A stretch of DNA of 44,620 bases from a virus (IMGVR_UViG_3300043398_000289:1-44620); one strand, 5' to 3'; positions 5,911 to 36,319 are shown, counted from the first letter of the stretch. The notes: generated by a model from the letters alone, not told the origin. Made by a program: numbers and translations.

Positions 5911-6408
5911 ATGCAGACCCCGTTCGTCACTCAGATCCTCCCGACCAACCCCGACATGCCCGAGAACTCGGCCCGTCTCGCGTCCGAGGCCGTCTCGGCG
6001 TTCGTTCGTGCGGGCTCGGCTAGGTTCACGCTGCTGAACCCGCAGACCGGCAAGCGCTTCACGTACAAGGTCAGCGCGCCGAAGTCGGCCCCGGACAACC
6101 CGCAGCCCGACGACGCGAAGCCGCTCTTCGTCTCGGTCCTCACGGGCTCGGACAACGACTCCGACTACAGCTACCTCGGCGTCATCTTCGCCGACTCCGG
6201 GTTCCGCGTGACGCGCCGCTCGAAGATCTCGCCGGACGCCCCGTCGGCCCTCGCGTTCGGTTGGTTCTGGCGTCGGCTCTCGAGCGGCTCGAGCTTCGAG
6301 CCGTGCGAGGTCTGGCACATGGGCCGGTGTGGTCGTTGTGGTCGCGCCCTGACCGACCCGGAGAGCATCGCCGCTGGCATCGGCCCCAAGTGCGAGGAGA
6401 TGTCGTGA
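5911..6408 (+). CDS. DUF6011-type protein with C-terminal zinc motif
   Basis: A 165-residue protein. The C-terminal VWHMGRCGRCGRALTDPESIAAGIGPKC is typical of the DUF6011 family, with CxxC and a later GPKC Cys that could bind zinc. The N-terminal 120 residues (RFTLLNPQTGKRFTYKV, then YLGVIF) resemble the module that precedes DUF6011 in many phage proteins. Biochemical role unknown. Transcribed from the promoter at 5835; the end overlaps the next gene's GTG (GTGA), coupling it to the cyclotransferase-like gene. Confidence 0.75.
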   Translation: MQTPFVTQILPTNPDMPENSARLASEAVSAFVRAGSARFTLLNPQTGKRFTYKVSAPKSAPDNPQPDDAKPLFVSVLTGSDNDSDYSYLGVIFADSGFRVTRRSKISPDAPSALAFGWFWRRLSSGSSFEPCEVWHMGRCGRCGRALTDPESIAAGIGPKCEEMS

Positions 6409-6905
6409 GTGACCTCGTGACCTATTTCGCGTTCGGCTCGAACATGTCGACGCGACAGATGTTCAACCGGTGCCCGTCGGCCCGTCCGATGGGCACCGGA
6501 GAGCTTCGCGGCTACCACCTCGTGTTCGGCGGTCGCGGGGTCGCGAGCATCGAGCCCCACGAGAGCCGCAAGGTGCATGGCGTCCTGTACGTCATGAAGG
6601 CCGCCGACCTGCTCCAGCTCGATACCTACGAGGGTGTCCCGACCGTGTACCGCCGTTGCTTCCGAAAGGTGGTCGACAAGTTCGGGACCCGCTGGAAGGC
6701 CCACACCTACGTCCTGAACGACGCGGGCCGCTCGAGGCCAGCGGAGAGCTACCTCAGCACCATTCGCGAAGCATACGTGCGATTCAACCTCCCGATCGAG
6801 CCGCTACACCGAGCACTCGAGGACGCCAAGCCTCGCCCTGTCCTGCAGGTGCCCGAGCGCATGAACGACGAGGACATCCGGCGAATGATGATGCGCGTTC
6901 ACTAA
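6405..6905 (+). CDS. AIG2/gamma-glutamylcyclotransferase-like protein 1
   Basis: A 166-residue protein starting at GTG 6405. YFAFGSNMS near the N-terminus is the nucleotide- or substrate-loop signature of the GGCT/AIG2 fold; LDTYEGVPTVYRR supplies the Glu region (YEG) where the catalytic acid of the family lies. Family members release 5-oxoproline from gamma-glutamyl groups. A second homologue sits at 8914-9297 and an amidoligase between them, an association known for Amidoligase_2 systems. Substrate unknown; a gamma-glutamyl or isopeptide-linked product of the amidoligase is a reasonable inference. The C-terminal 50 residues are an extension. Confidence 0.8.
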   Translation: MSDLVTYFAFGSNMSTRQMFNRCPSARPMGTGELRGYHLVFGGRGVASIEPHESRKVHGVLYVMKAADLLQLDTYEGVPTVYRRCFRKVVDKFGTRWKAHTYVLNDAGRSRPAESYLSTIREAYVRFNLPIEPLHRALEDAKPRPVLQVPERMNDEDIRRMMMRVH

Positions 6906-6984
6906 CGGTCGTCTCGCCCGGCGACCGAGCACGGCGGCTCTCCCACCGTTCGTGCTCCTGAAAGCCCAGGACGTAGGCTTGACG

Positions 6985-6998
6985 GCCGGAGAGACGGC
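6985..6998 (+). promoter_or_regulatory. GAGAGA-loop hairpin, copy 1
   Basis: GCCG, loop GAGAGA, CGGC. The same hexaloop closed by a G-C pair occurs twice before the DNA polymerase gene (14666-14679 and 14711-14726) with different stem sequences. Confidence 0.5.
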
Positions 6999-7235
6999 AC
7001 TTTCTCGAGGACCCGATGCCCAGACGCCGAACCGGTCGACGTGGAGTGACGGAAAGTCGGGCCTTTCTCGAGGGCCTCGGCCCGTCGTCGACCGTGGAAC
7101 CGTCGTCCACAACGTGCGAGTCTGCACGTGCGATTCCGACACAACGGGAATCGCCGACCCCAGCCACAACACCCACGAACCCCTCAGAAGCATATAACGA
7201 AGCCATAACAACCGTGTCAAGCGGGGTTGCCGGGG

Positions 7236-7253
7236 TTGGCACCGTTCCTGCAA
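7236..7253 (+). promoter_or_regulatory. sigma-54-like promoter core, copy 3
   Basis: TTGGCACCGTTCCTGCA with GG-N10-GC spacing conserved while the intervening bases differ from copies 2 and 4, which argues for selection on the -24/-12 elements. Confidence 0.5.
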
Positions 7254-7267
7254 TAACACCTCCCGAA

Positions 7268-7282
7268 GCCGCAAGGGGCGGC
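7268..7282 (+). promoter_or_regulatory. 5'-leader hairpin (GCCGC-N5-GCGGC), copy 4
   Basis: GCCGC, loop AAGGG, GCGGC preceded by GAAG; followed by AAGGAG and the ATG at 7301. Confidence 0.65.
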
Positions 7283-7300
7283 ACAAGGAGACGACAGACC

Positions 7301-8236
7301 ATGACGACCCTCAAGGACATCCGCTTTGGCATCGAGTTGGAGACCGTCGGCCTTTCGATCGAGCGCTGCGTTTCGGTGATCGCGGCTGCGATCCCGGGCT
7401 CGCGTGGCTCGTACGACAAGGTCCGCCTCGCCGATGGTCGCAACTGGTCTTGCGTCCGCGATGGTTCGCTCACCCCGGGCCAGTCCTGCGAGGTCGTCTC
7501 GCCGATCCTCACGTACGCCGACATGGACATGCTGCAGAACATCATCCGCGCACTTCGCGAGGCAGGAGCTAGGGCGGACGATAGCTGCGGGATCCACGTG
7601 CACGTCGACGGTTCGGTGCTCGACGCGCGCTCGATGGCCAACCTCGTCAAGAGCTACAACAAGCAGGAGGATCTCCTGGTCAAGGCGCTCGCGGTCCGCA
7701 GCAATCGTCGCCGGTACTGCAACGCGGTCGATCAGGCCTTCCTTGGCCGTCTCGAGCGCCGCGCCGTCCGTTCGCTGGACGACGTGCGCACGGCTTGGTA
7801 CGGACGCCGCGAGATGCACGTGAGCCGCTACGACGTCTCGCGCTACCACGGGCTCAATCTCAACAGCTTCTTCTACCGTGGCACCGTCGAGTTTCGCCTG
7901 TTCAACGGCTCGATGCACGCTGGCGAGGTCAAGGCGTACGTGAACCTCTGCCTCGCCATGGTGGCCAAGGCCACGCAGATCAAGTCCACCCCGAGCAGCA
8001 AGCGCGAGAGCACGGACGAGACGGCCAAGTACGACATGCGGATGTTCCTCGTGTCCCTGGGCTTCATCGGCGACGAGTTCGAGAGCACGCGCCTTCACCT
8101 CCTCAAGCACCTCAAGGGCTCGGGCGCTCACCGCAACACGACCCGCAACCCCGAGCCGCGCGTGACTCCGCCCGGGATGCGCTGGGTCTTCGGCCGCCTG
8201 ATCCCGGTCGCAGGCCAGGAAGCAACCCAGGCCTGA
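7301..8236 (+). CDS. Amidoligase_2-type enzyme
   Basis: A 311-residue protein of the glutamine-synthetase-fold amidoligase family (Amidoligase_2). Visible signatures in order: FGIELET (metal-binding ExE, residues about 7-13), EVVSP, SCGIHVHVDGS (about residues 94-104) and GTVEFRLFNGSMHAGEVKAYVNL, the late GT-E-R strand with its following helix. Such enzymes use ATP to make amide or isopeptide bonds, and the phage forms often neighbour AIG2-like cyclotransferases, as here on both sides. The substrate could be glutathione-like peptides, cell-wall peptides or a protein tail; the sequence does not say. Own cassette promoter, leader hairpin and Shine-Dalgarno site fix the ATG at 7301, although the frame is open upstream. 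Confidence 0.8.
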   Translation: MTTLKDIRFGIELETVGLSIERCVSVIAAAIPGSRGSYDKVRLADGRNWSCVRDGSLTPGQSCEVVSPILTYADMDMLQNIIRALREAGARADDSCGIHVHVDGSVLDARSMANLVKSYNKQEDLLVKALAVRSNRRRYCNAVDQAFLGRLERRAVRSLDDVRTAWYGRREMHVSRYDVSRYHGLNLNSFFYRGTVEFRLFNGSMHAGEVKAYVNLCLAMVAKATQIKSTPSSKRESTDETAKYDMRMFLVSLGFIGDEFESTRLHLLKHLKGSGAHRNTTRNPEPRVTPPGMRWVFGRLIPVAGQEATQA

Positions 8237-8247
8237 GGTTCACACCG

Positions 8248-8287
8248 GGCGGTCCCGCACGTGCGCCCTTGGCACGACGGGACCGCC
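8248..8287. terminator. long two-part hairpin, terminator-like
   Basis: Perfect 10-bp stem GGCGGTCCCG/CGGGACCGCC (8248-8257 with 8278-8287) enclosing CGTGC/GCACG (8260-8264 with 8272-8276). It corresponds to 5317-5358; the outer stem bases differ but pairing is kept. Confidence 0.55.
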
Positions 8288-8346
8288 GACCCCATAACGA
8301 ACACATAAGGAACCCATAACAACCGCGTCAAGCGGGGTTGCCGTGG

Positions 8347-8364
8347 TTGGCACAAGGGCTGCAA
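8347..8364 (+). promoter_or_regulatory. sigma-54-like promoter core, copy 4
   Basis: TTGGCACAAGGGCTGCA, GG at 8349-8350 and GC at 8361-8362. Predicted transcript start (about 8374) nearly coincides with the ATG at 8376, so the message would be leaderless. Confidence 0.5.
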
Positions 8365-8375
8365 TAACGTCTCCC

Positions 8376-8537
8376 ATGACCAACCCGAACAAGTTCCTCG
8401 CCAGCCACACCCTCGGCCTTCTCGATTGGGCGCGCGAGGCCGCCCCTCGTTCCAACAAGGGCTGGGCCGTTGCTCGCCAGCCCTCCACCCGCTGGGATCA
8501 CTTCTCTCCCAGCTTTTCCGCCCCCTCTTTCAGCTGA
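8376..8537 (+). CDS. small hypothetical protein
   Basis: A 53-residue protein (MTNPNKFLASHTLGLLDWAREA then Ser/Phe-rich end FSPSFSAPSFS). There is no Shine-Dalgarno site; translation would depend on a leaderless mRNA from cassette 4. It is followed by a GC-rich hairpin at 8559-8578. Coding status rests on the promoter placement and a protein-like first 22 residues; function unknown. Confidence 0.45.
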   Translation: MTNPNKFLASHTLGLLDWAREAAPRSNKGWAVARQPSTRWDHFSPSFSAPSFS

Positions 8538-8558
8538 TCGGAAGTGGCACGACACAAT

Positions 8559-8578
8559 CCCCGGGGTCACCCCCGGGG
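8559..8578 (+). terminator. GC-rich hairpin after 8537
   Basis: CCCCGGGG, loop TCAC, CCCCGGGG: a perfect 8-bp stem 21 bases after the stop. Two smaller inverted repeats follow (TTGCC-GA-GGCAA at 8583-8594, GCGGAG-N5-CTCCGC at 8596-8612). There is no T-run, so termination is inferred from stem strength only. Confidence 0.5.
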
Positions 8579-8643
8579 GAGCTTGCCGAGGCAAGGCGGA
8601 GCGCCCCTCCGCTCGTGCGACCCCCGATCCGCTGAACCCAGAA

Positions 8644-8658
8644 GCCGCAAGAAGCGGC
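8644..8658 (+). promoter_or_regulatory. 5'-leader hairpin (GCCGC-N5-GCGGC), copy 5
   Basis: GCCGC, loop AAGAA, GCGGC preceded by GAAG, 16 bases before the GTG at 8675; the promoter for this unit is not evident. Confidence 0.65.
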
Positions 8659-8674
8659 AGAAAGACAGGACACC

Positions 8675-8917
8675 GTGACGACCGAGATCACAGACACGAG
8701 CCTTGCGGTTTTCTTGGCCTACGCTCGGGATGCCCGCAACTGGTCTGGAACCCCAATGGTGGGAGGCAACGTCGGCGGAAGCCCGGAGGAACGCGGGAAC
8801 ATCACGCAGTGCAAGCGTGCTGGGTTGTGGATCACGTGGAAGGACGAGGGCTGTACATGGATCCAGTTCACCGAGGCCGGCAAGGCGTTGGCCCTCAAGC
8901 ACGGGATCGAACTGTGA
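8675..8917 (+). CDS. small hypothetical protein
   Basis: An 80-residue protein from a GTG with AGACAGGA as ribosome site. Its C-terminal half (WITWKDEGCTWIQFTEAGKALALKHGIEL) resembles the wing and final helix of small winged-helix phage proteins, and FTEAGKALA matches the common FT-x-G-x-A ending. It overlaps the next gene by GTGA, coupling it to the second cyclotransferase homologue. Confidence 0.6.
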   Translation: MTTEITDTSLAVFLAYARDARNWSGTPMVGGNVGGSPEERGNITQCKRAGLWITWKDEGCTWIQFTEAGKALALKHGIEL

Positions 8918-9297
8918 CCCACCTCGTCTTCGTGTACGGCTCGCTGCTCTCGGGTGAGCACAACCACGGGCTCCTGGGAGGGGCCACGTTTCGCGGCATA
9001 GCGAGCACGTGGCCACACTTCCGCCTCTACGACCTGGGTTCGTTTCCAGGCGTCGTCGAGCACCACAAGGGCCGAGTCATCGTCGGCGAGGTGTATGAGG
9101 TCGACGACGCAACGCTCGCGCGCCTCGACCGGCTCGAGGGACACCCGCGCATGTACGAACGCCGCACGGTCGCGTGCGTCGGCCCGGGTCTTCGCGTGCA
9201 CAAGGCTTGGCTGTACGTCTACAAGGGCCGAGTTCTCGAGCAGGACGAGGTTCGCAGCGGCAACTGGCAACTGCACCGAATGGAGAGGGACCGATGA
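8914..9297 (+). CDS. AIG2/gamma-glutamylcyclotransferase-like protein 2
   Basis: A 127-residue, minimal-length GGCT-fold protein. VFVYGSLLSGEHN is the family YGSL loop; LDRLEGHPRMYERR contains the Glu-Gly-His-Pro motif at the position of the catalytic acid, followed by the typical Tyr-Arg strand; AWLYVYKGR is the closing strand. It is shorter than and divergent from the copy at 6405, so the two probably have different substrates. Start GTG 8914 overlaps the upstream stop. Likely a partner or counter-enzyme of the amidoligase at 7301 (inference). Confidence 0.85.
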   Translation: MTHLVFVYGSLLSGEHNHGLLGGATFRGIASTWPHFRLYDLGSFPGVVEHHKGRVIVGEVYEVDDATLARLDRLEGHPRMYERRTVACVGPGLRVHKAWLYVYKGRVLEQDEVRSGNWQLHRMERDR

Positions 9298-9515
9298 ATC
9301 TGATCATGCAGGACGGGCGCGTGTTTCGTGGCAGCAAGCGAGACATCGTGGAGCAGATGCGGTCGTCGGCGTTCTCGCCGCACGCGAGCCTCGAGGCGTA
9401 CATCGTGTGGTGCGCCGATCGTGCAGGCCTGGCCTTGCGCGAGGACACACCGGAAGCGCTGGTCGACGCGATGCTCAAGGCCGAGATCGTCGCCGAGAAG
9501 GGCAGCAAGCCGTGA
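9294..9515 (+). CDS. hypothetical protein
   Basis: A 73-residue protein with ATGA overlap to the upstream gene. It starts MNLIMQDGRVFRGSKRDIVEQM, a style seen in small phage proteins in which a beta-hairpin (DGRVFRGS) precedes helices; the remainder (LEAYIVWCADRAGLAL) is helical. Function unknown. Confidence 0.6.
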   Translation: MNLIMQDGRVFRGSKRDIVEQMRSSAFSPHASLEAYIVWCADRAGLALREDTPEALVDAMLKAEIVAEKGSKP

Positions 9516-9583
9516 GACCGAAGAGAACAGACAACGAGGTCGTCTACTCACTCGATGAGGTCCGCGACCTCGTGTGCGAATGA
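9512..9583 (+). CDS. very short ORF in coupled cluster
   Basis: A 23-residue peptide from GTG 9512 (GTGA overlap) to 9583, where its stop overlaps the next ATG (ATGA). The sequence is charged (RPKRTDNEVVYSLDEVRDL). It is kept only because it links two stop-start overlaps in the same style as its neighbours; it may be a coupling leader rather than a functional peptide. Confidence 0.35.
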   Translation: MRPKRTDNEVVYSLDEVRDLVCE

Positions 9584-9807
9584 GCCGCGGTGGACCGCCA
9601 GAGGACTTCGTGCCCTATTCGGCGAGAGTGAGGCTCTCCAAGAAGAGCATCATCATCAGCTGGAATGACGACGAATCGCTGCGTGTTGCGGCCTCTGCAC
9701 TTCGCGCAGCCTTGCGCGAACGCAGCCGACGAGGAGATCTAGACAACGAAGACAAGATCTGGGAAGCCGACGCCGCTCTTGCACTGGCCCTCGGCGAGGA
9801 ACCTTGA
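9580..9807 (+). CDS. hypothetical protein
   Basis: A 75-residue protein starting at ATG 9580 (ATGA overlap); a GTG six bases earlier is possible. A short beta segment (ARVRLSKKSIIISW) is followed by a long charged helix rich in Ala, Arg and Glu. No motif recognised. Confidence 0.55.
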   Translation: MSRGGPPEDFVPYSARVRLSKKSIIISWNDDESLRVAASALRAALRERSRRGDLDNEDKIWEADAALALALGEEP

Positions 9808-9832
9808 CACGACACGCCAAGCGTGGTAAGCA
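9804..9832 (+). promoter_or_regulatory. candidate promoter with operator-like palindrome, before nuclease gene
   Basis: TTGACA (9804-9809), 17-base spacer, TAAGCA (9827-9832), then exactly 9 bases to the GTG at 9842. Inside the spacer is the inverted repeat CACGC-CAA-GCGTG (9813-9825). The downstream gene lacks a Shine-Dalgarno site, so a leaderless transcript is predicted. Confidence 0.45.
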
Positions 9833-9841
9833 GAACGTCCC

Positions 9842-11401
9842 GTGGAGCGAGCCCTTAGCAAGACCCAACTCGAGGCCTGGAAGCTCTGCAAACGCAAATG
9901 GGGCTTTCCTTACCTCGAGGGGCTCCGAGGCTCGAACGAGTTCGCGACGTTCGGCACCCAGGTTCACGCTCAACTCGAGCGTTGGCTGGCGCGCGGTGTC
10001 CTGCCCGATCCGTACCTGCCCGAGGGCAAGGTTGCCGAAAGCGGGCTTCAACATCTGCCACCTCCGAGCACGCCCGGCTTGCTTGTCGAGACCGAGGTCT
10101 TCACGATCACGAACGAGTCGGTTTACCACGGGTTCGCCGACTGGATCGAGCCGCCCGTTGACGGTGTGCCCGTCATCGGCGATCACAAGAGCACAGTCGA
10201 CTTCAAGTGGTCCCTCACACCCGAGGACCTCGAGCAAGACATCCAGGCCAACATCTACGCGCGCGCAGCGATGCAGCTGTACGACGTCGATCGGGCCGAG
10301 GCTCGCTGGATTTACTACCGCACACGTGGAGCGCCGAAGTCTCACGTGGTCTCGCGCAGTTTGACCCGCGAAGGTGTCGAGCGTGTGTTCCTCGAGGTCA
10401 TCGACCCGCTGGCGGCAGAAATCCAGGCAGCATGGGAGCAGAGGCCGCGAGTGCTCGAACTCGAGCCGAACCCGCGAGCCTGCAACGATTTCGGTGGCTG
10501 CCCATTCCGGGAAAGCTGCTCGATGGATGCGAAAGGACGGTTGATCGCTATGGTGGCACACAGCGGACTTGCAGCGCAGATGAAGGCCAAGGCGGAGGCC
10601 AAGAAGGCGGCCGAGGCCCAGGCTTCGACCACAACCCCGAAGGCGGCCGAGGCCCAGGCTTCGACCACAACCCCGAAGGTGGCCGAGGCCGAGGCCCCGA
10701 CCGGGGGGATCAACCCTCCCGAGGGCCAGGCCTCCAAGGTGCCGCTCAAGGACCGGCTCAAGAGCCTCTCCAAGGCCGCCAAGGGCGAGACCCCGGCGAC
10801 CCCCGCCCCCGAGACGCCAAAGGCCACGGAGGACCCTCCGGAGGTCAAGATCGGGGACTTCTGGGCGCATGGCTCGGACAAGAAGCCCTCGCAGGTCGTC
10901 GCGATCGGACCCGGCGACCAGGTCGCCCTGAACGACGGGACGTCTTCGGTGACGACCTCGACCAAGTTCCTGCGGAACCCGACGACCGGATGGCGCTTCG
11001 TGCGCTCCGGAGGCGCTCCGGAGGCCTCGAGCGAGCCGACCCAGGCGAAGGCCGCCCCCGAGAAGCCGAAGGCCACGAAGACGGCTCCGGAGCCCGCCGC
11101 GAGCACCGGGTCGGGCTTCACCCTTCTGTATGGGTGTTTCCCGACCCAGGGTCCGGGGGTCACGCACGCGACCGACTACATCGGCCGAGCCAAGCACATG
11201 ATCGAGAGCGAACTCGGTCTGCAGGACTACAGGCTCGCGGAGTTCGGCAAGGGTGCAGGTCTGCTCGCAGCGGCAACCCGCCAGTGCATCGCCGACGACC
11301 CGCCGGATGGGCTCGTGTTCCTCGACTCTCGGACCGACGAGGGACGGCACACGTTCGAGGCATTCCGCGAGTCGGCGTCGATCGTCATCCGGTCGCTGTG
11401 A
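9842..11401 (+). CDS. PD-(D/E)XK nuclease, Cas4/RecB-like, with repetitive linker and extra C-terminal domain
   Basis: A 519-residue protein. The N-terminal 250 residues carry the RecB/Cas4 nuclease order: SKTQLEAWKLCKRKWGF, GTQVHAQLERWL, ETE, HGFADWIE-IGDHKST (active-site D and D-x-K), then QANIYARAA (motif Q-Y) and a Cys cluster CNDFGGCPFRESC which with the early Cys could hold an iron-sulfur cluster. It probably trims DNA ends in phage recombination with the SF2 helicase and RuvC-like gene downstream. From about residue 255 comes an Ala/Pro/Thr linker with a 12-residue repeat encoded by a 36-bp tandem repeat (10604-10675), a small beta domain (VKIGDFWAHGS) and a C-terminal alpha/beta domain of about 100 residues not recognised. 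Confidence 0.8.
   Translation: MERALSKTQLEAWKLCKRKWGFPYLEGLRGSNEFATFGTQVHAQLERWLARGVLPDPYLPEGKVAESGLQHLPPPSTPGLLVETEVFTITNESVYHGFADWIEPPVDGVPVIGDHKSTVDFKWSLTPEDLEQDIQANIYARAAMQLYDVDRAEARWIYYRTRGAPKSHVVSRSLTREGVERVFLEVIDPLAAEIQAAWEQRPRVLELEPNPRACNDFGGCPFRESCSMDAKGRLIAMVAHSGLAAQMKAKAEAKKAAEAQASTTTPKAAEAQASTTTPKVAEAEAPTGGINPPEGQASKVPLKDRLKSLSKAAKGETPATPAPETPKATEDPPEVKIGDFWAHGSDKKPSQVVAIGPGDQVALNDGTSSVTTSTKFLRNPTTGWRFVRSGGAPEASSEPTQAKAAPEKPKATKTAPEPAASTGSGFTLLYGCFPTQGPGVTHATDYIGRAKHMIESELGLQDYRLAEFGKGAGLLAAATRQCIADDPPDGLVFLDSRTDEGRHTFEAFRESASIVIRSL
10604..10675 (+). repeat. 36-bp tandem repeat inside the nuclease linker
   Basis: Two exact 36-base copies (10604-10639, 10640-10675) encoding KAAEAQASTTTP twice, with a degenerate third copy starting at 10676. 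The repeat keeps the frame and sits in the flexible linker. Confidence 0.85.
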
Positions 11402-11475
11402 TGCTCGGGTCGGCGATCTTCGTCGGGGTGGTTGTCCTTCTAGCGATCGCCATCATGATCCACGAGGACCCATGA
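11401..11475 (+). CDS. 24-residue single-span membrane peptide
   Basis: From ATG 11401, overlapping the nuclease stop (TGATG), to 11475. The peptide is almost entirely one hydrophobic segment (IFVGVVVLLAIAIMI) with the end HEDP. The stop overlaps the next ATG (ATGA). Tiny, but doubly coupled; a membrane-acting accessory peptide is plausible. Confidence 0.5.
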   Translation: MLGSAIFVGVVVLLAIAIMIHEDP

Positions 11476-11684
11476 TCTGGCCTTGCGGTCTGCATCAAAG
11501 CGAAGGCGAACCTCCGCTTGAGTGCCCGATCTGCAAGGCTGCATTGGCCGAGATCGAGGCCTCGCCGTTCGCGAATGGCGCACGTACACGAGCCCAGCAC
11601 AAGGCCTGGAAGGGCCGACGAGCAACCGGCAAGGACAACCAAGGACGACAGCTGTTCGGCAACAGCAGGAAGGCGAAGAAATGA
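11472..11684 (+). CDS. small zinc-finger protein
   Basis: A 70-residue basic protein with CGLH near the start and CPIC 14 residues later, a CxxH/CxxC zinc-binding arrangement, followed by a Lys/Arg-rich tail (KAWKGRRATGKDNQGRQLF). ATGA overlap upstream, and its stop overlaps the ATG at 11681. Nucleic-acid binding is likely but unproven. Confidence 0.6.
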   Translation: MIWPCGLHQSEGEPPLECPICKAALAEIEASPFANGARTRAQHKAWKGRRATGKDNQGRQLFGNSRKAKK

Positions 11685-11795
11685 ATCAGAAGACGATCGA
11701 AGAGCACGCGGTGGAACACCTGGACAACATCCGACTGGACGACGATCATCTCGAGCCTGCAGTCCGACATCGACGCGATGGGAGACGACGAGTGA
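11681..11795 (+). pseudogene. short acidic ORF apparently broken by a +1 frame change
   Basis: The reading frame from ATG 11681 (good AGGAAGG ribosome site) gives MNQKTIEEHAVEHLDNIRLDDD and then turns into Arg-rich, unnatural sequence. Moving by one base near 11744 gives IISSLQSDIDAMGDDE and a stop at 11793-11795 that overlaps the GTG of the next gene (GTGA). Either an extra base lies here (assembly or sequencing error, or a real mutation) or the ribosome shifts frame. Without the shift, 11681-11992 would be one 103-residue ORF. Confidence 0.5.
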
Positions 11796-11992
11796 ACGAC
11801 AACGAACGAGAGGAGCGCGAGCGCCAGAAGCTCGCCGCTGGCCTGCGAGGGACGCACCGACAGAAGGTGAAGCGCTGCTTCAACGACGCGCGGCTCGCAG
11901 TCGCGGCTCGTGTGTACGGGAACCGTCGTCAGCGTCGCGCCGCACAGCGTGCGATCGCGCTTCACGAGAAAGGCAGGAAGCACGTTCCGTGA
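11792..11992 (+). CDS. small basic hypothetical protein
   Basis: A 66-residue Arg/Lys-rich protein (NDNEREERERQKLAAGLRG, then NRRQRRAAQRAIALHEKGRK). GTG 11792 is preferred over the in-frame ATG at 11681 because GGGAGA lies at a good distance and because of the GTGA overlap with the broken ORF upstream. It overlaps the helicase start by GTGA. A nucleic-acid-binding role is likely from charge alone. Confidence 0.6.
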   Translation: MNDNEREERERQKLAAGLRGTHRQKVKRCFNDARLAVAARVYGNRRQRRAAQRAIALHEKGRKHVP

Positions 11993-13797
11993 CGAGTCTC
12001 GCCGATCGCCTTCTCGCCAAGGTCGGAAAGACCCGGGCCGACGTCAACCCGAGATCGGGTGTCGGTCAGGCTTTCCGCCGAAAGGGTGTGGAACGGACAC
12101 CGGATTTCGTCCGTGTGTTGACGCTTCCTCGCATCGACTGGCGAGAAGGCGCGAGCGAGCTTGCGGACATGCTGACCGACGAGTTCGGTAGACCAGCGGG
12201 CAAGTGCAACGAGGACTGCATCTGTCGCGGTGTTGGGCACATGCGGCTCCGGCCCGTGCAGGCTGCGTCGCTGGCCGCGTTGCACGACTTCGGTGGCTTG
12301 TTCGCACCGATCGTCGTCGGCGGAGGGAAAACGCTGGTCTCGTTCCTGTCGGCTCGTGTGATCGACGCCAAGCGTCCGCTGTGTCTCGTTCCCGCGAAGC
12401 TGCGCGGAAAGACCGAGGCCGAATGGTGGAAGCTCTCGGTCCACTGGAAGCTCCCACAGATTCGCGTCGAGTCGTACGAGCGCCTCGGTCGCGCCGAAAA
12501 CGCGAAGCTACTCGAGCAGTACCGGCCCGATTTCATATTCGCCGACGAGGCACATCGCCTAAAGAACACCAAGGCTGCAGTCACTCGACGCGTGCACCGG
12601 TACCTGCAGAGCCAATGGAAGGACAACAAGCGAGTCGTCGTCGCGCTCGCGTCGGGTACGCTGACCACGCAGTCAATCCGCGACTACTGGCACCTTCTGC
12701 GCTGGACGCACGGCACCGATCGGATGCCGCTCCCGCGCGAATGGGCCGAAATGATGGAATGGGCGTCGGCCCTCGACGTCCTGGGCTCGAGTGTCATCCG
12801 CACAGCACCGGGAGCGCTGTCCGAGTTCTGCACGACCAAGACGCCGGACCTTGAGACCGTGCGCGACGGATACCGCAAGCGCATCGTCGAGACTCCCGGT
12901 GTCGTCTCCACCTCGACCAAGCACGTTGGCTGCTCGCTCCTGATCACAGGACAAGACCTGCCCACACTCGACAAGCTCGCGCCACACTACGAGCGGCTGC
13001 GCACCGAGTGGCAGACGCCGGATGGTTGGGACTTCTCCGAAGCTATCGAACTCTGGCGACACGCGCGCGAACTCGTAAATGGTTTCTTCAATGTCTGGGA
13101 TCCTCGGCCGCCCGAAGAGTGGATGCGCAAGCGCAAGGCGTGGCACCGATTCGTGCGTGTCGTGCTCAAGCACTCGCGCCAATACGACACCGAGTTTCAG
13201 GTCGCGACTGCTTGTCATCAGGGCAAGATCTCGCCGATGGTCGACGGCGTCGACGTCTACCGCGAGTGGAAGACGATCAAACCCACGTTCGAGCCTAACG
13301 CGATTCCGGTGTGGGTCGACGACACAACGCTCCGCTTCGCTCAGAAATGGCTCGAGGAGGACGCCGGGATCTGCTGGGTCGAGCACCCGTGCTTTGGCGA
13401 GAAGCTCGCGAAGATGAGCGGCTTTCCCTACTACGGGCGAAAGGGCCTCAACAGCAAAGGCGAGGCGATCGAAGACGCGAAGGGACCGATCATCGCGTCG
13501 GTGCTCGCGAACGGAGAAGGCCGGAACCTGCAGCGCTGGAATCGCAATCTCGTTGTGTCTTGTCCGCCGAACGGCAAGACAATCGAGCAGCTTCTCGGGC
13601 GCACGCACCGAGATGGGCAGGAAGCGGACGAGGTGTGCTATAGTTTCGTGATCGCCTGCAAGGAGCAGCTGGACGGATTCCACAAGGCCGTGCGCGAGGC
13701 GCAGTTTATCGAGCAGACACTCGGACAGCCGCAGAAGCTTGTATACGCAGACAAGGACCTCGGGTCGTTCGAGGAGAAGAGAGGACCGAGATGGTAG
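11989..13797 (+). CDS. SF2 helicase, SNF2/DEAH-like
   Basis: A 602-residue superfamily 2 ATPase. Walker A-type VVGGGKTLVSF (about residue 109), motif II ADEAHRLKN (about 185), motif III-like LASGT, and motif VI QLLGRTHRDGQEAD (about residue 534) are all present. A Cys cluster CNEDCICRG lies before the helicase core (about residues 70-78) and may bind zinc. Phage relatives act in replication or recombination; the flanking Cas4-like nuclease and RuvC-like gene suggest a recombination/repair set. Start GTG 11989 overlaps the preceding stop. Confidence 0.85.
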   Translation: MTSLADRLLAKVGKTRADVNPRSGVGQAFRRKGVERTPDFVRVLTLPRIDWREGASELADMLTDEFGRPAGKCNEDCICRGVGHMRLRPVQAASLAALHDFGGLFAPIVVGGGKTLVSFLSARVIDAKRPLCLVPAKLRGKTEAEWWKLSVHWKLPQIRVESYERLGRAENAKLLEQYRPDFIFADEAHRLKNTKAAVTRRVHRYLQSQWKDNKRVVVALASGTLTTQSIRDYWHLLRWTHGTDRMPLPREWAEMMEWASALDVLGSSVIRTAPGALSEFCTTKTPDLETVRDGYRKRIVETPGVVSTSTKHVGCSLLITGQDLPTLDKLAPHYERLRTEWQTPDGWDFSEAIELWRHARELVNGFFNVWDPRPPEEWMRKRKAWHRFVRVVLKHSRQYDTEFQVATACHQGKISPMVDGVDVYREWKTIKPTFEPNAIPVWVDDTTLRFAQKWLEEDAGICWVEHPCFGEKLAKMSGFPYYGRKGLNSKGEAIEDAKGPIIASVLANGEGRNLQRWNRNLVVSCPPNGKTIEQLLGRTHRDGQEADEVCYSFVIACKEQLDGFHKAVREAQFIEQTLGQPQKLVYADKDLGSFEEKRGPRW

Positions 13798-13979
13798 CGA
13801 AGCGAAAGAGCCTCGGGCAGATCGCATTCGAGGCGTACAACGAGGCCAAGGGCGGAGTTACGTACGATGGAAAGCCGATCCCACCTTGGGAGGACGTCGG
13901 CGACGCTGTGCGCAGCGCATGGGAAGCAGCGGCCCGTGCCGTGTGGGAGAGGTCGACGGCGGATGTGTTCGCCAAGTGA
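13791..13979 (+). CDS. small conserved-type phage protein
   Basis: A 62-residue protein: IAFEAYNEAKGGVTYDGKPIPPWEDVGDAVRSAWEAAARA. This helix-loop-helix pattern (AYNEA, PPWEDVGDAVRSAW) is frequent among small phage proteins of unknown function. The ATG lies within the last codons of the helicase gene. Confidence 0.65.
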   Translation: MVAKRKSLGQIAFEAYNEAKGGVTYDGKPIPPWEDVGDAVRSAWEAAARAVWERSTADVFAK

Positions 13980-13983
13980 ACGT

Positions 13984-14056
13984 GCCTGCAAAGCTCAAGC
14001 GGTAGAGCACCTGTTTTGTAAACAGGAGGAAGCGAGTTCGAGTCTCGCTGCAGGCT
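13984..14056 (+). tRNA. tRNA-Thr (anticodon TGT)
   Basis: 73 bases fold as a complete tRNA: acceptor GCCTGCA/TGCAGGC, D-stem GCTC/GAGC with GCGGTA loop, anticodon stem CCTGT/ACAGG with loop TTTGTAA (anticodon TGT, reads ACA), variable AGGAA, T-arm GCGAG-TTCGAGT-CTCGC. CCA is not encoded. It begins 5 bases after the preceding stop. ACA codons would be rare in a GC-rich host, so the tRNA may supplement translation. Confidence 0.9.
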
Positions 14057-14100
14057 TGCGGAGCGTGTTGCTCTGCTAGTAGAGAAAGAGAAGGCAAATC

Positions 14101-14589
14101 ATGGGATTCTTCAAGAACATCGAGAGCGCGAAGGTCGGACTCGGCGGAATCTACTTCCTCGCCAACAAGGGCGAGGGCCACACCGAGAAGGAGCCGAAGT
14201 GGATCCCGGCGTCGTACGACCTCGAGATCCTCAAGATTACGACGATGACCTCGCGCAAGAAGGACGACCTGTTCATCGTCGAGTGCAAGATCATCAAGTC
14301 GGACTGTCCCGAGCGCAAGGCGGGCATCTCGGCTTCGTGGGTCGTGAACCTCAAGCAGGACGCCGCGATGGGCAACATCAAGGGCTTCATCGCAGCGGCG
14401 AACGGCATCGACCCCAGCGACGAGGAGGCCGTCAACGAGGCCGTGACGGAGGAAGTCTGCGAACTCGCGGTCTCGAACGATCAGCCGCTCGCGGGCAACA
14501 AGATCCACCTCGAGTGCATCATGATCAAGACGCGCGAGAACAAGGACTTCACGCTCCATCGCTGGTCGCCTGCGGCCGAGGCTGCGTGA
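14101..14589 (+). CDS. DUF669-like putative single-strand DNA-binding protein
   Basis: A 162-residue protein starting MGFFKNIESAKVGLGGIYF, with an OB-like strand pattern (YDLEILKITTM, DLFIVECKII, SASWVVNL) and HRW near the C-terminus. This layout resembles DUF669-type proteins that phages encode beside DNA polymerases and which are thought to bind single-stranded DNA. AGAAGG gives the ribosome site. It is flanked by the tRNA-Thr and the polymerase leader. Assignment is by resemblance. Confidence 0.55.
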   Translation: MGFFKNIESAKVGLGGIYFLANKGEGHTEKEPKWIPASYDLEILKITTMTSRKKDDLFIVECKIIKSDCPERKAGISASWVVNLKQDAAMGNIKGFIAAANGIDPSDEEAVNEAVTEEVCELAVSNDQPLAGNKIHLECIMIKTRENKDFTLHRWSPAAEAA

Positions 14590-14593
14590 CTCT

Positions 14594-14617
14594 CGAGGCC
14601 GCGCGAAACCGTGGCCT
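14594..14617 (+). terminator. hairpin after 14589
   Basis: GAGGCC/GGCCTC stem with a 12-base interior, five bases after the stop. No T-run. It may limit read-through or mark the start of the polymerase leader. Confidence 0.35.
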
Positions 14618-14665
14618 CGCTCGGAACGCCTCGGGGCGGTGAAGCCTGCAGATGACGGCGTGACA

Positions 14666-14679
14666 GTTGGAGAGACAAC
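14666..14679 (+). promoter_or_regulatory. GAGAGA-loop hairpin, copy 2
   Basis: GTTG, loop GAGAGA, CAAC, immediately before the tRNA-like fold and about 80 bases before the DNA polymerase start. Confidence 0.5.
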
Positions 14680-14680
14680 G

Positions 14681-14754
14681 AGATCCGTAGCTCAACTGGA
14701 AGAGCGCAGAGCCCGGAGAGACGGGCGGTGTCGGTTCGAATCCGGCCGGATCTG
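14681..14754 (+). ncRNA. tRNA-like structure with non-canonical anticodon arm, polymerase leader
   Basis: Acceptor AGATCCG/CGGATCT (7 bp), D-arm GCTC-AACTGGAA-GAGC and T-arm GTCGG-TTCGAAT-CCGGC are fully tRNA-like. The 24 bases where the anticodon arm should be give no 5+7+5 stem with T33. Instead they form GCCCG-GAGAGA-CGGGC (14711-14726), displaced by about 4 bases. The 3' end lies 3 bases before the polymerase ATG, so the fold occupies the place of the ribosome-binding site. It may be a decayed tRNA or a regulatory tRNA mimic. Confidence 0.65.
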
Positions 14755-14757
14755 TAG

Positions 14758-16725
14758 ATGACGCTCGCATTCGACAACGAAACATTCCTGATCGGCCAAG
14801 CGCAGGTTGCGCCTCCGCTCGTCTGTGTGTCGTTCACCGATGGCGAAGAGGTCGACGTCGTGCACCGACGCGACCCTGCCGCGTACAGGTTCGCGCGATT
14901 CGCGCTCGAGTCGGAGCACGAGCTTGTTGGGCAGAACGTGCCCTTTGATCTCGCTGTATGGTGCAACGAGTGGCCGGACCTGCTCGATCTTGTGTTCGCG
15001 GCTTACGACGCAGACCGAGTCGTCGACACGATGGTCCGGCAGAAGCTCCTGGACATCGCGCACGGCTGCTATCGTGGCTTCCGCTCCGGATTGACTGGCG
15101 TGTGGATCGAGCACAAGTATCACCTCGCCGACCTCGCGAAGAGACACACGTATCCGGTCGACCTGGACAAAGACACGTGGCGGTTGCGCTACAACGAACT
15201 CGTCGACCTCGACGTAGCCGATTGGCCAGAGGGTGCAGTTGACTACAGCGCACACGATGCGTTGTCGACTTTTCATGTGTGGCGAGCACAAGAAGCCGAA
15301 CGGCGGCTGCTCGATGACCAGTACCGCCAGTGCCGAGCCCATTGGGCTTTGCACCTGATGAGCGCCTGGGGTGTGCGTACTGATCCGGCCATGGTCGACC
15401 GGCTCGAGAAGCTCACGCGCGCCATGCTCGCCGACCACGAGGCGACGCTACTCGAACACAAGCTCATCGAGCCCAAGAAAGCCGGTGGCTTCACCAAGAA
15501 GGTCAAGCGTGCACAGGAGTTCGCGAAGGCCGCTTGGGAGCGCCGAGGCGGAGAGATGGTGCTAACCGACGGCAAGCAGGTCTCGCTGTCAGAGGACGCA
15601 GCCGAGAGGCTCGGAGACCCGGTCATCACGGCGTTTCAGCAGTTCGGCTCCGCGTCGACCATCCTGGCTCGTGTCGAAGAGCTTCGACCGGGGCTCCTGC
15701 ACACGAGGTTTGATGAACTCATGCAGTCTGGCCGGACCTCGAGCAGCAAGCCCAACATCCAGAACCGAGCGGTCGACATCATGGTGCGTCCGCGTTGCGG
15801 ACACAAGGTCAACAAGAAGAAGACTTCTTGTCCCGAGTGCAAGACGCCTTATGAGGTCGCAGGCGACAGAGAGGCGTTCGTGCCTCGCGAGGGCTGTGTG
15901 CTCCTCATGTCCGATGTGCCCGGCCTCGAGCTTCGCACGATAGCCCAGACGTGCGTCAAGATCGTTGGCTACTCGCGCCTCGGCGAGATCTTGAACGCCG
16001 GCCGCGATCCACACATCGAGGTTGCGGCGACGCTGCGCGGAATCTCGCTCGAGGAAGCCTACCGACGCAAGACCGACCCGAACGACACAGACATCTATCT
16101 TGCTCGGCAGACCGGCAAAGTCGTCAACTTCGGTCTCAACGCGCGTCTGGGATGGCGTGGCCTGATCGAGCAGGCTCGCACCAAGTATGGCGTGCTGCTC
16201 AACGAGTACGAGTCGAAGCAAGCCATCGAAGCTTACTACGCGACGCTACCTGAGATGCGCGAGTTCCACAGCTGGGTCGACGGCGAGTGTGCGAACGGCA
16301 TGGGACAAGCGATTCACCTGTTCTCCGGTCGGGTGCAAGGTCTGTTGTCGCCGACCATGATGTCGAATACCTTCTCGCAGGGGCTCGGCGCGGACGCGAC
16401 CAAGGCCGCCCTCTACGAACTCGCCCGCGTGTGCTACGTCGGCAGAGGCCAACCGCTATACGGCTCGCGCTCCGTCAACTACGTGCACGACGATTATCAC
16501 GTCGAGACGCTCGAGGAGAACCTCGACGCCAAGAGCGAGCAGATGGCCGATGTGATCTGCACCGAGATCAACAAGTGGCTGCCTGACGTTCCCGTGCCGC
16601 GTGACGAGATGCGGCCAATCGCGGCTCGCCGTTGGAGCAAGAAGGCCAAGCGCGAACTGAACCCTAACGGCACACTCGCCGTATGGGAGTGGCAAGAGTG
16701 GATCAGACAGCAGGAGGAACGATGA
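14758..16725 (+). CDS. dpoZ: family A DNA polymerase with 3'-5' exonuclease (candidate DpoZ)
   Basis: A 655-residue replicative polymerase. Exonuclease motifs: FDNETF (residues 5-10), GQNVPFDLAV (about 58-67) and DYSAHDAL (about 162). Polymerase motifs: SDVPGLELRTIAQ (motif A, about 385), RQTGKVVNFGLNARLG (motif B/O-helix, about 450) and VHDDYH (motif C, about 576). There is no 5' nuclease domain. A four-Cys insert (CGHK then CPEC, about residues 346-361) sits between the template-binding QSGRTSSSKPNIQN motif and motif A. PurZ-type phages commonly carry a PolA-like DpoZ that accepts dZTP, and PurZ/MazZ-like genes lie 0.8-3.6 kb downstream; the DpoZ label rests on that context. No Shine-Dalgarno site: the start abuts the tRNA-like fold. 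Confidence 0.85.
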   Translation: MTLAFDNETFLIGQAQVAPPLVCVSFTDGEEVDVVHRRDPAAYRFARFALESEHELVGQNVPFDLAVWCNEWPDLLDLVFAAYDADRVVDTMVRQKLLDIAHGCYRGFRSGLTGVWIEHKYHLADLAKRHTYPVDLDKDTWRLRYNELVDLDVADWPEGAVDYSAHDALSTFHVWRAQEAERRLLDDQYRQCRAHWALHLMSAWGVRTDPAMVDRLEKLTRAMLADHEATLLEHKLIEPKKAGGFTKKVKRAQEFAKAAWERRGGEMVLTDGKQVSLSEDAAERLGDPVITAFQQFGSASTILARVEELRPGLLHTRFDELMQSGRTSSSKPNIQNRAVDIMVRPRCGHKVNKKKTSCPECKTPYEVAGDREAFVPREGCVLLMSDVPGLELRTIAQTCVKIVGYSRLGEILNAGRDPHIEVAATLRGISLEEAYRRKTDPNDTDIYLARQTGKVVNFGLNARLGWRGLIEQARTKYGVLLNEYESKQAIEAYYATLPEMREFHSWVDGECANGMGQAIHLFSGRVQGLLSPTMMSNTFSQGLGADATKAALYELARVCYVGRGQPLYGSRSVNYVHDDYHVETLEENLDAKSEQMADVICTEINKWLPDVPVPRDEMRPIAARRWSKKAKRELNPNGTLAVWEWQEWIRQQEER

Positions 16726-17566: not shown

Positions 17567-19150
17567 ATGCTGATTGTTCTTTCGGGTGAGATCGCGTCGG
17601 GCAAGTCGACGCTCGCGCAGACAATGAGCCAGCGAGGCTGGACGGTCATCAAGACACGCGAGGTCATCGAGGCCATGTTCGCCCAGCGCAACGGCGGGCG
17701 AGCGCCGAAGGATCGACCCGAGTTCCAGGCGTTCGGCGACCACCTCGACGAGAACGTCCCGACGTGGCTCTCGACGGCTGCGATCGCCCAATCCCTCACA
17801 GGTGCGAACCTCGTCATCGACTCGGTGCGCCGAGAGGACCAGATCGAGTCACTGCGCGAGGTCTTCGGTCGCGTGGTCCACGTGCACCTCGAGGCGGAGC
17901 CCGGATCGCTGCGCGAGCGGTTCGAGAAGCGCGGAGACATCGACAACTACGAGCGCATCAAGGCCCAGCGCACCGAAGCCCAGGTCAACAACCTGCGGTC
18001 GATCGCCGATCTCGTCGTCAACACCTCGAGGAGCGAACCGCGCGACGTAGAGGTCAGACTCGATGCGTTCCTGAACCGCTCCGAGGTCACGCCGTGCGTT
18101 GACGTGGTCATCGGTGGCCAGTACGGCTCGGAGGGCAAGGGCCACGTGGTCTCGCACATCGCGCACGAGTACGATGCTCTCGTTCGCGTCGGCGGACCGA
18201 ACGCAGGGCACACGGTACTGCGCCCGGACAACGGCGAGAAGGTGAGCTTCTACCACATCCCGTCCGGAGCGCTGCACAGCCCACGAGCCATCCTGATCCT
18301 CGGCCCGGGAGCGGTCATCAACCCCAAGGTCCTCGAGAAGGAAGCGCAGTACCTCGGAGGGCTCGAGAAGCTGCGCGGACGACTCATGATCGACCCGCAG
18401 GCCAACGTGATCTCGGAGGACGACATCGCGAACGAGGCGGGCCTCGTGGCGTCGGTCGGTTCGACTGGTCAGGGCGTCGGAGTCGCAACCGCACGCAAGA
18501 TCGTGGAGCGCGGAACGCGCAAGCTCGCTCGCGACTGCGAGATGCTCAAGCCCTTCATGCGGCCCTCGCTCGAGATCCTCGACTACGCGTACAGGACAGG
18601 CGTCCGCGTGATGCTCGAGGGAACACAGGGAACCGGTCTGTCGCTGCACCATGGCCACTACCCGTATGTGACCTCGAGGGACACGACGGCGTCCGGAACG
18701 GCAGGCGAGGCGGGCATCCCGCCGCGTCGGATCCGCAAGGTGATCGTGGTCGTCAGGACCAACCCGATCCGCGTGCAGAGCCCGCCCGGTGGAACGAGCG
18801 GACCGATGGGTCGCGAGACGACGTGGGAGGAGATCAGCAAGCGAGCCGGTGTGCCCGCCGACGAGCTTCGCCTCAAGGAGATGACCACAACGACGAAGAG
18901 GCAGCGTCGCGTGGCCGAGTTCAACTGGCAGGACCTCCACAGGGCGACGATGCTGAACGGACCCACCGACATCGCGTTGACCTTCGTCGATTACATCGAC
19001 CACGCGAATCAGAGCGCGCGCCGCTACGAGCAACTGACCCCCGAGACGCTGCGGTTCATCGAGGAGGTCGAGCGCGTCGCTGCGTGCCCGGTCTCGCTCA
19101 TCACGACCCGCTTCCACAAGCGCTCAATCATCGATCGGAGGGCCTGGTGA
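17567..19150 (+). CDS. purZ: nucleotide-kinase-like domain fused to PurZ (N6-succino-2-amino-2'-deoxyadenylate synthase)
   Basis: A 527-residue fusion. Residues 1 to about 170 are a P-loop kinase-like domain (LSGEIASGKST at 6-15, LVIDSVRRE, LRERFEKRG lid-like segment). Residues about 178-527 are adenylosuccinate-synthetase-like: GGQYGSEGKG (Ser188 replaces the catalytic Asp of PurA), GGPNAGHT (His215 kept), GSTGQGVG, EGTQGTGLSLHHGHYPYVTSRDTT, GGTSGPMGRET and the C-terminal ITTRFHKR. Known PurZ enzymes join Asp to dGMP, giving the precursor that host PurB converts to dZMP. The fused kinase could act on dGMP or dZMP (inference). Ribosome site GAGGTGAG; it is followed by a GTGA-coupled pair of genes. 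Confidence 0.9.
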   Translation: MLIVLSGEIASGKSTLAQTMSQRGWTVIKTREVIEAMFAQRNGGRAPKDRPEFQAFGDHLDENVPTWLSTAAIAQSLTGANLVIDSVRREDQIESLREVFGRVVHVHLEAEPGSLRERFEKRGDIDNYERIKAQRTEAQVNNLRSIADLVVNTSRSEPRDVEVRLDAFLNRSEVTPCVDVVIGGQYGSEGKGHVVSHIAHEYDALVRVGGPNAGHTVLRPDNGEKVSFYHIPSGALHSPRAILILGPGAVINPKVLEKEAQYLGGLEKLRGRLMIDPQANVISEDDIANEAGLVASVGSTGQGVGVATARKIVERGTRKLARDCEMLKPFMRPSLEILDYAYRTGVRVMLEGTQGTGLSLHHGHYPYVTSRDTTASGTAGEAGIPPRRIRKVIVVVRTNPIRVQSPPGGTSGPMGRETTWEEISKRAGVPADELRLKEMTTTTKRQRRVAEFNWQDLHRATMLNGPTDIALTFVDYIDHANQSARRYEQLTPETLRFIEEVERVAACPVSLITTRFHKRSIIDRRAW

Positions 19151-34867: not shown

Positions 34868-36319
34868 TCAGACCGTGACGACCTGCAGCGCGGGGTTCAG
34901 GAAGCCGAGCGAGAGTTCGATGAACTCCGGGTACGCGAGCGGGATCACACGGGCTGTGCCCGTCATGGTCTGCGTCGAAAGCAGGTTGTCCGTGCGGGAC
35001 AGCACGAACTGGATGCCGGACGCCTTCGGCTTCGCGAGCAGCGCTGCACGCATGACGGCGCGCGCTCCACTCTCGATCTCGAGCGCCTCGCTCTCGAGGA
35101 TGAAGCCGGTTGTGGCGTCGACCTGCACGGGCTGGTTGAGCCTGCGGATGAAGTACGTGCGCAGCGCAGCATGCGCGATGTTGAGCACGCGCCGATGCGG
35201 CATCAGGCGGAAGTCGGAGCCGTCCGCCGAGAAGATCCGAGGCCGGTTCACGAACACACCCGCGACGCCGTCCCACGTACGCAGGACGGTGAACCGCGCG
35301 TCGTCGAGGCCCGGGTTCACGCTCTCGTCGTGCTCGTCGACGTTGCCGTTCGCGTCCCGGATCGCGACACCGGGTAGCGTCCCGAGGTTGACGTCGGCGA
35401 TGTCGATCTCCTCGGACACGAACGCGTTGCGCGACGCGATCGCGAACGACACCGGACGCCGGTACTTGCGGCCAGACACGCTCGAGGTGAGCTTGCACGC
35501 ACCCGCGCACAATTCGCCGAAGATCGTCGCCTTGGTCGCGAACGCAGCGGACAGCGACGAGAGATACGTCGCCTCACTCTCACCGGGGTCGGGGATCCGC
35601 ACACTGCCAACCCATGCGTGGTACTTGCCCGCGTTCAGCATGCCCGAGAACTTGGGGTCGATCACGTCGAACGTTGTGGCGTCGATCGGACCGACGATCT
35701 CGGCAAGCTCCCACGAGACGGCGGAGGCCGCGAGTGCGTCGAGCGCATCGCCGATCTCGGTGCCGTTCCAGTTCGGGGCTTCGCCAAGCGCCGTCCAGTA
35801 GTCGCCCGCGACGAGTGTCCCTGCGGCGAAGTTGAAGCGCACACCACCCGAGTTCGGGATGATGTAGAACACGGCGGTCCCGAGCGCGGTCGTTGGCGAG
35901 TACGTGCGTCCGCCGTCGAGCGAATACTGGAACGTGATTCCAGTCACGCCGATCGTGCCGCCCATGATCACGCGGACCTTGAACTCGTAGTCGTCCCACG
36001 GCAGGGTGCCCGCATGCACGGTGACGACCGACGTTCCGGTTCCTGTGAACGTCACGGCCGAAATCGTTGCGGCGACGGTCTGGCCTGTGCGCACGAGGAC
36101 CACGGGTCGCCCGTACTTCTCGATGTGGTGTGCAGCTGCCTCGACGAGCGGCCCGTAGCCGAAATCGGACTGGATGTCCTGGATTCGTGCGTACGTGGCC
36201 GGTGTGTCGGTCGGCCCCTGCGACGAGACGCCGAGCAGGGCGAAGAGACGACCAGCACTCGGCGGCAGGATGCCAAGGGCTCCGTCGAGTTCGGTGATCG
36301 TCACGCTGGGCTGTGTCAT
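34868..36319 (-). CDS. tail sheath protein
   Basis: A 483-residue protein with the sheath layout: N-terminal SVTITELDGALGILPPSAGRLFALLGVSSQGP, central insertion rich in beta strands, and C-terminal RVLNIAHAALRTYFIRRLNQPVQVDATTGFILESEALEIESGARAVMRAALLAKPKASGIQFVLSRTDNLLST, the conserved sheath core. Defines the phage as contractile (myovirus). Ribosome site GAGGAC just upstream. Confidence 0.9.
   Translation of the reverse strand: MTQPSVTITELDGALGILPPSAGRLFALLGVSSQGPTDTPATYARIQDIQSDFGYGPLVEAAAHHIEKYGRPVVLVRTGQTVAATISAVTFTGTGTSVVTVHAGTLPWDDYEFKVRVIMGGTIGVTGITFQYSLDGGRTYSPTTALGTAVFYIIPNSGGVRFNFAAGTLVAGDYWTALGEAPNWNGTEIGDALDALAASAVSWELAEIVGPIDATTFDVIDPKFSGMLNAGKYHAWVGSVRIPDPGESEATYLSSLSAAFATKATIFGELCAGACKLTSSVSGRKYRRPVSFAIASRNAFVSEEIDIADVNLGTLPGVAIRDANGNVDEHDESVNPGLDDARFTVLRTWDGVAGVFVNRPRIFSADGSDFRLMPHRRVLNIAHAALRTYFIRRLNQPVQVDATTGFILESEALEIESGARAVMRAALLAKPKASGIQFVLSRTDNLLSTQTMTGTARVIPLAYPEFIELSLGFLNPALQVVTV

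Follow-up and report, generated by a model that had tools for sequence, protein, structure and literature searches.

The operator of T4 gp43 is a hairpin in the leader of a phage polymerase. The boxB of lambdoid nut sites is another short hairpin of phage transcripts: its purine-rich loop is GNRA-like, it is a pentaloop, and it has a boxA partner upstream. In the put RNA of phage HK022, two stem-loops of the phage transcript act on host RNA polymerase, and no phage protein takes part (PMC9378689).

We analyzed a virus record of 44,620 bases (the window), in which a preliminary description had noticed three hairpins with the same GAGAGA loop. Two of them were seen as part of a DNA polymerase leader and were likened to the T4 gp43 translational operator, which made polymerase autoregulation seem plausible. 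All three hairpins lie where that description placed them: GCCG-GAGAGA-CGGC at 6985-6998, GTTG-GAGAGA-CAAC at 14666-14679 and GCCCG-GAGAGA-CGGGC at 14711-14726. The idea of a recurrent element whose stems differ while pairing is kept is borne out by covariation; autoregulation in the manner of T4 gp43 is not. A conserved structured RNA element, present in a very large number of unrelated phages and prophages, occurs twice in the window; its P2 helices are the hairpins at 6985 and 14666.

Taken alone, the recurrence of three hairpins in the window is a weak signal. GGAGAGAC occurs six times where 4.1 occurrences are expected, and 9 of 60 dinucleotide shuffles contain some hexaloop 8-mer that recurs at least three times in hairpins. 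The local minimum-energy fold does not contain the 6985 hairpin. The extended context GGCNTGACNGNNGGAGAGAC is common to the hairpins at 6985 and 14666. Other leads were dropped. The flanking direct repeat CTGYAGATGACG (14646 and 14752) was rejected as an insertion scar, with about one such 11/12 match per kb arising by chance (a rough count). The pattern GGAGAGAC..GGTTCGAATCC yielded five loci in viral contigs, none of them related to the window.

The element consists of a helix P1 (about 5 bp, closed by A-U or G-U), the linker GACA, a 4-bp helix P2 with the loop GAGAGA, and a final AC. P1 and P2 form two adjacent stem-loops, 4 nt apart, and GACA and GAGAGA are invariant within this two-helix frame. 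The pattern GACRGCCGGARAGACGGC is found in at least 119 viral contigs, against three for a reversed control pattern that preserves its composition and hairpin. Pairing in P2 can be judged from the stem-agnostic search GTGACANDNGGARAGACNHNAC, which leaves out the common stem (GCCG) and returns 66 distinct sites. Stems are fully complementary in 59 of these sites (58 of the 59 GAGAGA-class), whereas re-dealing the arms gives a mean of 21 and a maximum of 32 in 500 trials. The complementary stems are CTGG/CTAG (30 sites), GTCG/CGAC (15), CTCG/CGAG (4) and CTTG/CAAG (4), together with the rarer CTGG/CCAG (2), GATG/CATC (2), GAGG/CTTC (1) and ATCG/CGAT (1).

The evidence for P1 comes from its position. 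In 114 of 155 GAGAGA-class sites the 3' end of P1 lies exactly at the U before GACA, while offsets of -12 to -2 give 26-39. P1 also shows a wide variety of pair types, but these were counted in an alignment that was chosen on pairing, which leaves the offset test as the unbiased evidence. Many GAGAGA-class sites have a lower stem GU/AC, mostly 2 bp long, which would turn GACA into a bulge and may compete with P1, since both use the same GU. A U-tract stands immediately 3' of P2 in 23 of the 155 sites, compared to 3-4 in control windows. In GAAAGA-class sites, P1 was not found at that place, and the GAAAGA class may be a different element. A DNA promoter with GTGACA as its -35 box was considered and rejected: a -10 box is not enriched at the right spacing, and the stem covariation is left unexplained.

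Copies in the window were located with R1, a covariance model of 41 other sequences that excludes both the window and a polymerase relative, G014. P1 loops were trimmed to 8 nt for training, and the window was searched with filters off. The top match (35 bits, E 1.7e-7; E-values of R1 are rough) is copy 1, at 6959-7002 on the plus strand. Its P1 pairs AAGCC (6962-6966) with GGCTT (6976-6980), its linker is GACG (6981-6984), and its P2 pairs GCCG (6985-6988) with CGGC (6995-6998) around the loop GAGAGA (6989-6994), followed by AC (6999-7000). The second match (27 bits, E 2.1e-5) is copy 2, at 14626-14679 on the same strand. Here P1 pairs ACGCC (14626-14630) with GGCGT (14657-14661) in the consensus context GGAACGCC, GACA follows (14662-14665), and P2 pairs GTTG (14666-14669) with CAAC (14676-14679) around GAGAGA (14670-14675). 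The third match, 14712-14725, covers the P2 part alone (15 bits, E 0.028), and the fourth-best has an E-value of 0.46. In both copies P1 ends at the U before GAC[AG], and a 4-bp P2 with the loop GAGAGA comes next. It is nearly certain that copies 1 and 2 are members of a real conserved element.

Copy 1 precedes an Amidoligase_2 gene (7016-8236, plus strand; PF12224, 8.6e-54), and copy 2 immediately precedes a tRNA-like gene. A GGACT (AIG2-like) gene comes before the amidoligase gene in the region 6261-8236, with copy 1 between the two. Elsewhere in the window, positions 17567-19150 encode a PurZ/adenylosuccinate-synthetase-like protein (PF00709) with an N-terminal kinase-like domain (CPT/AAA_18). 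The matches of this product to the NCBIfam PurZ and PurA models are below the cut-offs; a 2-aminoadenine (Z) genome is possible. The window also holds genes for a terminase large subunit (42217-43986) and a tail sheath (34868-36319), and hence belongs to a contractile-tailed phage.

The tRNA-like gene lies at 14681-14754 on the plus strand. It scores 41.9 bits against the Rfam tRNA family RF00005 (gathering score 29), and its minimum-energy fold is a cloverleaf; ARAGORN, run on the window, calls no gene at this place. Its acceptor stem is perfect and its D and T arms are intact, like those of RF00005, whereas the anticodon arm is displaced. The anticodon region consists of a 5-nt linker, a 5-bp stem, a 6-nt loop GAGAGA and a 3-nt variable region. 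There is no U33, no 7-nt anticodon loop and no readable anticodon. An ordinary neighbor, tRNA-Thr (TGT) at 13984-14056 on the plus strand, is called by ARAGORN and scores 66 bits with Rfam.

The third hairpin (14711-14726, plus strand) is the anticodon arm of this aberrant gene, with a GAGAGA-loop helix as in the motif. P1 is absent, and the linker is CAGA instead of GACA. It looks like the P2 helix of the motif placed into the anticodon arm; for this hairpin only, a chance origin of the loop identity is possible. Among the loci examined, a GAGAGA helix serves as anticodon arm only in the window (a single-sequence observation), and anticodon arms are ordinary in phage tRNAs that share the identical D arm. 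Further tRNA-like elements, in which acceptor and T arms flank a middle part that is aberrant or very long, were seen in L069 (G014:61500-62600), L038 (906-973) and L003 (~10630-11300).

The polymerase gene (14758-16725, plus strand; PF00476, 8.3e-18) begins with its ATG 3 nt after the 3' end of the tRNA-like gene. The hairpin at 14666 is cut off from the polymerase start by this gene and the one at 14711 lies within it. All three hairpins lie clear of the polymerase ribosome-binding site; 78 nt separate the end of copy 2 from the ATG, and the gene downstream of the 6985 hairpin is the amidoligase gene, not the polymerase. Unlike the T4 gp43 operator, the motif is not located at a ribosome-binding site and has no linkage to the polymerase, which is a family-A enzyme and not of the gp43 type.

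An alignment of the polymerase with that of phage ctsHD2 (MW202816) led to 35 relatives in viral contigs (best 41% identical), and the polymerase-relative leaders inspected contain no GGAGAGAC hairpins. Among 30 polymerase-relative records, G014 has clear copies of the motif, G023 has a single weak match (E 0.038), and the others have none. Because the relatives are distant, this result is weaker than loss in a close relative. G014 has two GARAGA hairpins next to odd tRNA-like elements, at a distance of about 5 kb from its polymerase; like the first two hairpins of the window, they are preceded by the context GAC[AG]G. Unrelated phages have the motif in front of tRNAs, of tmRNA, of a gene that follows the major capsid gene, and of genes of unknown function. 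The operator in the polymerase leader is rejected, since the motif is not linked to polymerase genes.

Other polymerase relatives have tRNAs or tRNA-like structures close to the gene. A canonical tRNA-Gln in a distant relative (L034, 2914-2984) has its discriminator base 1 nt before the polymerase ATG. With gaps of 1 nt in L034 and 3 nt in the window, tRNA 3'-end processing would make the polymerase mRNA nearly leaderless. About 75 nt before the polymerase ATG, L019 and L041 carry a tRNA-like structure with acceptor and T arms, one long hairpin and no D arm, which scores under the Rfam tRNA threshold.

In other genomes, 22 of 238 motif sites are followed within about 330 nt by a tRNA that ARAGORN calls; most sites are without a nearby tRNA. 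Where tRNAs do follow, the first one begins 4-13 nt after P2 in 17 of the 22 sites, and two tmRNA-like 5' ends each lie 10 nt after P2. All 32 downstream and all 11 upstream tRNAs are on the strand of the motif, and none is opposite. Over the 150 nt downstream of the motif, T-arm-like sequences occur about eight times as often as at random. Intergenic sites make up 75 of 186, compared to 13% of random positions, as judged by a crude ORF caller that is too permissive in GC-rich DNA. Other copies precede protein genes: the one in Stenotrophomonas phage phiSHP3 stands behind the major capsid gene, and those in Pseudomonas phage Itty13 and in an E. coli prophage lie within gaps of several hundred bases. 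Most annotated copies are oriented with the gene that follows, but not those in Xanthomonas phage FoX1, Vibrio phage 1.123.O and Aeromonas phage phiWae15. An upstream promoter (TATAAT) is not enriched at motif sites.

Genomes carry one or two copies of the motif. Tandem copies about 100 nt apart were seen in L125 (279 and 396), L339, L345 and L349, with a P1 of type ACACC/GGTGT in the first copy and ACGCC/GGCGT in the second. Long unannotated gaps of partly similar sequence with R1-like hairpins occur in an E. coli prophage (L322, 2803-3814) and a P1-like plasmid (L323, 2842-3297); in these two gaps, Rfam reports tRNAs alone above threshold.

According to record titles, bacterial copies occur in Pseudomonadota, Bacteroidota, Clostridia, Actinomycetota, Cyanobacteria, Planctomycetota, Verrucomicrobia and Spirochaetes, most groups outside Pseudomonadota being represented by the P2 pattern by itself. 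R1 supports the copies in 7 of 12 genomes tested. Phage genes adjoin several bacterial copies, and a single genome among 369 of one host class matched, the center genome itself. Hence the element is viral and not a housekeeping element. A search of E. coli genomes with an enterobacterial 121-nt copy gave no match.

What the element does is far less certain than that it exists. Our overall explanation joins the near-certain statement that copies 1 and 2 are a real conserved element with a function held at low certainty, and we give the two jointly a probability of about 0.5. Phages of very different hosts share one loop and linker, so the partner should be universal (RNA polymerase, a conserved ribonuclease or the ribosome) or else the RNA itself. 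By analogy to put, the element may be an antitermination or anti-polarity signal, a possible rather than probable role. It would act in cis on the nascent transcript via machinery shared by all hosts. Host RNA polymerase could thereby cross untranslated or weakly translated phage segments such as tRNA arrays, tmRNA and long leaders. In that case the element would serve to protect phage transcripts in general, rather than being an operator of DNA polymerase. R1 has no match in HK022 between 25.5 and 32.5 kb, which we take to be the region of early promoters, and homology with put is therefore not shown. Strandedness, viral distribution, proximity to tRNAs and the put precedent (PMC9378689) count for antitermination; against it count the lack of TATAAT enrichment, the missing HK022 match, the GAAAGA class without P1 and the copies that no co-oriented gene follows.

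RNA processing would account for the tight spacing to tRNAs at least as well as antitermination does. The helices and the following stretch could guide a host ribonuclease (RNase III or one of the RNase E/G/Y type) to cleavage sites immediately before the 5' ends of tRNA, tmRNA or mRNA, or could protect these ends, with RNase P finishing the tRNA. The 17 of 22 tRNAs that begin 4-13 nt after P2, the strict strandedness and the U-tract after P2 all speak for such a role. We rate it slightly below antitermination. Against it, loop and linker are constant although host ribonucleases vary between phyla, more nucleotides are conserved than a cleavage site requires, and many copies stand before protein genes at no fixed distance. 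A host-independent distribution would be natural for a new small self-cleaving ribozyme that releases the downstream tRNA or mRNA, and the invariant GACA and GAGAGA in a two-helix frame and the placement before tRNAs agree with it. It matches no Rfam ribozyme family, however, and its conserved core is small; a ribozyme is unlikely.

We consider an operator for a phage or host RNA-binding protein, polymerase autoregulation included, to be just as unlikely. A GNRA-like hexaloop with a conserved linker is a plausible protein site and one or two copies per genome would suit an operator, but polymerase genes are not linked to the motif, and the same loop and linker recur in phages of unrelated gene content. 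Thus antitermination or transcript protection ranks first, followed by processing or 5'-end definition, and then equally by ribozyme and protein operator. Finally, the three hairpins could lack any kinship and share a purine loop by chance. The window statistics are unremarkable and the third hairpin sits inside a tRNA-like gene, as chance would allow. For copies 1 and 2 this reading is contradicted by the database-wide enrichment over the control, the covariation, the exactly placed P1 and the independent model matches (1.7e-7 and 2.1e-5), and as an account of all three hairpins it is extremely improbable.

Neither in the window nor in the motif-bearing loci does the motif match a family of Rfam 15. 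A literature search by sequence, loop name and description found nothing relevant; most subscription papers were outside its scope, and an earlier description of the motif is therefore possible. Structured RNA elements so widespread in phages yet absent from Rfam are uncommon. The element is present in phages of many host groups, which argues for action via universal host machinery or by the RNA itself. With the odds somewhat against it, the motif could be an undescribed phage RNA class of this kind, an RNA-only antitermination or transcript-protection signal or a ribozyme, placed before tRNA arrays, tmRNA and operons, whose P2 replaced a tRNA anticodon arm in the window. If host-independent control of transcription or processing holds true, it would help to explain how tRNA arrays and tmRNA are expressed across very different hosts. 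The motif together with the covariance recipe makes the element directly searchable and testable.

In kind, the element is familiar: a cis-acting structured RNA of phage transcripts. With boxB it shares a purine-rich GNRA-like loop, but the loop is a hexaloop and a P1 helix stands in front of it. The put sites are promoter-proximal or in early leaders, whereas TATAAT shows no enrichment upstream of the motif. Both putL/putR and the motif form two adjacent stem-loops in a phage transcript. While put is about 70 nt long with longer, bulged stems, the motif has short helices of 5 and 4 bp around an invariant GACA/GAGAGA core.
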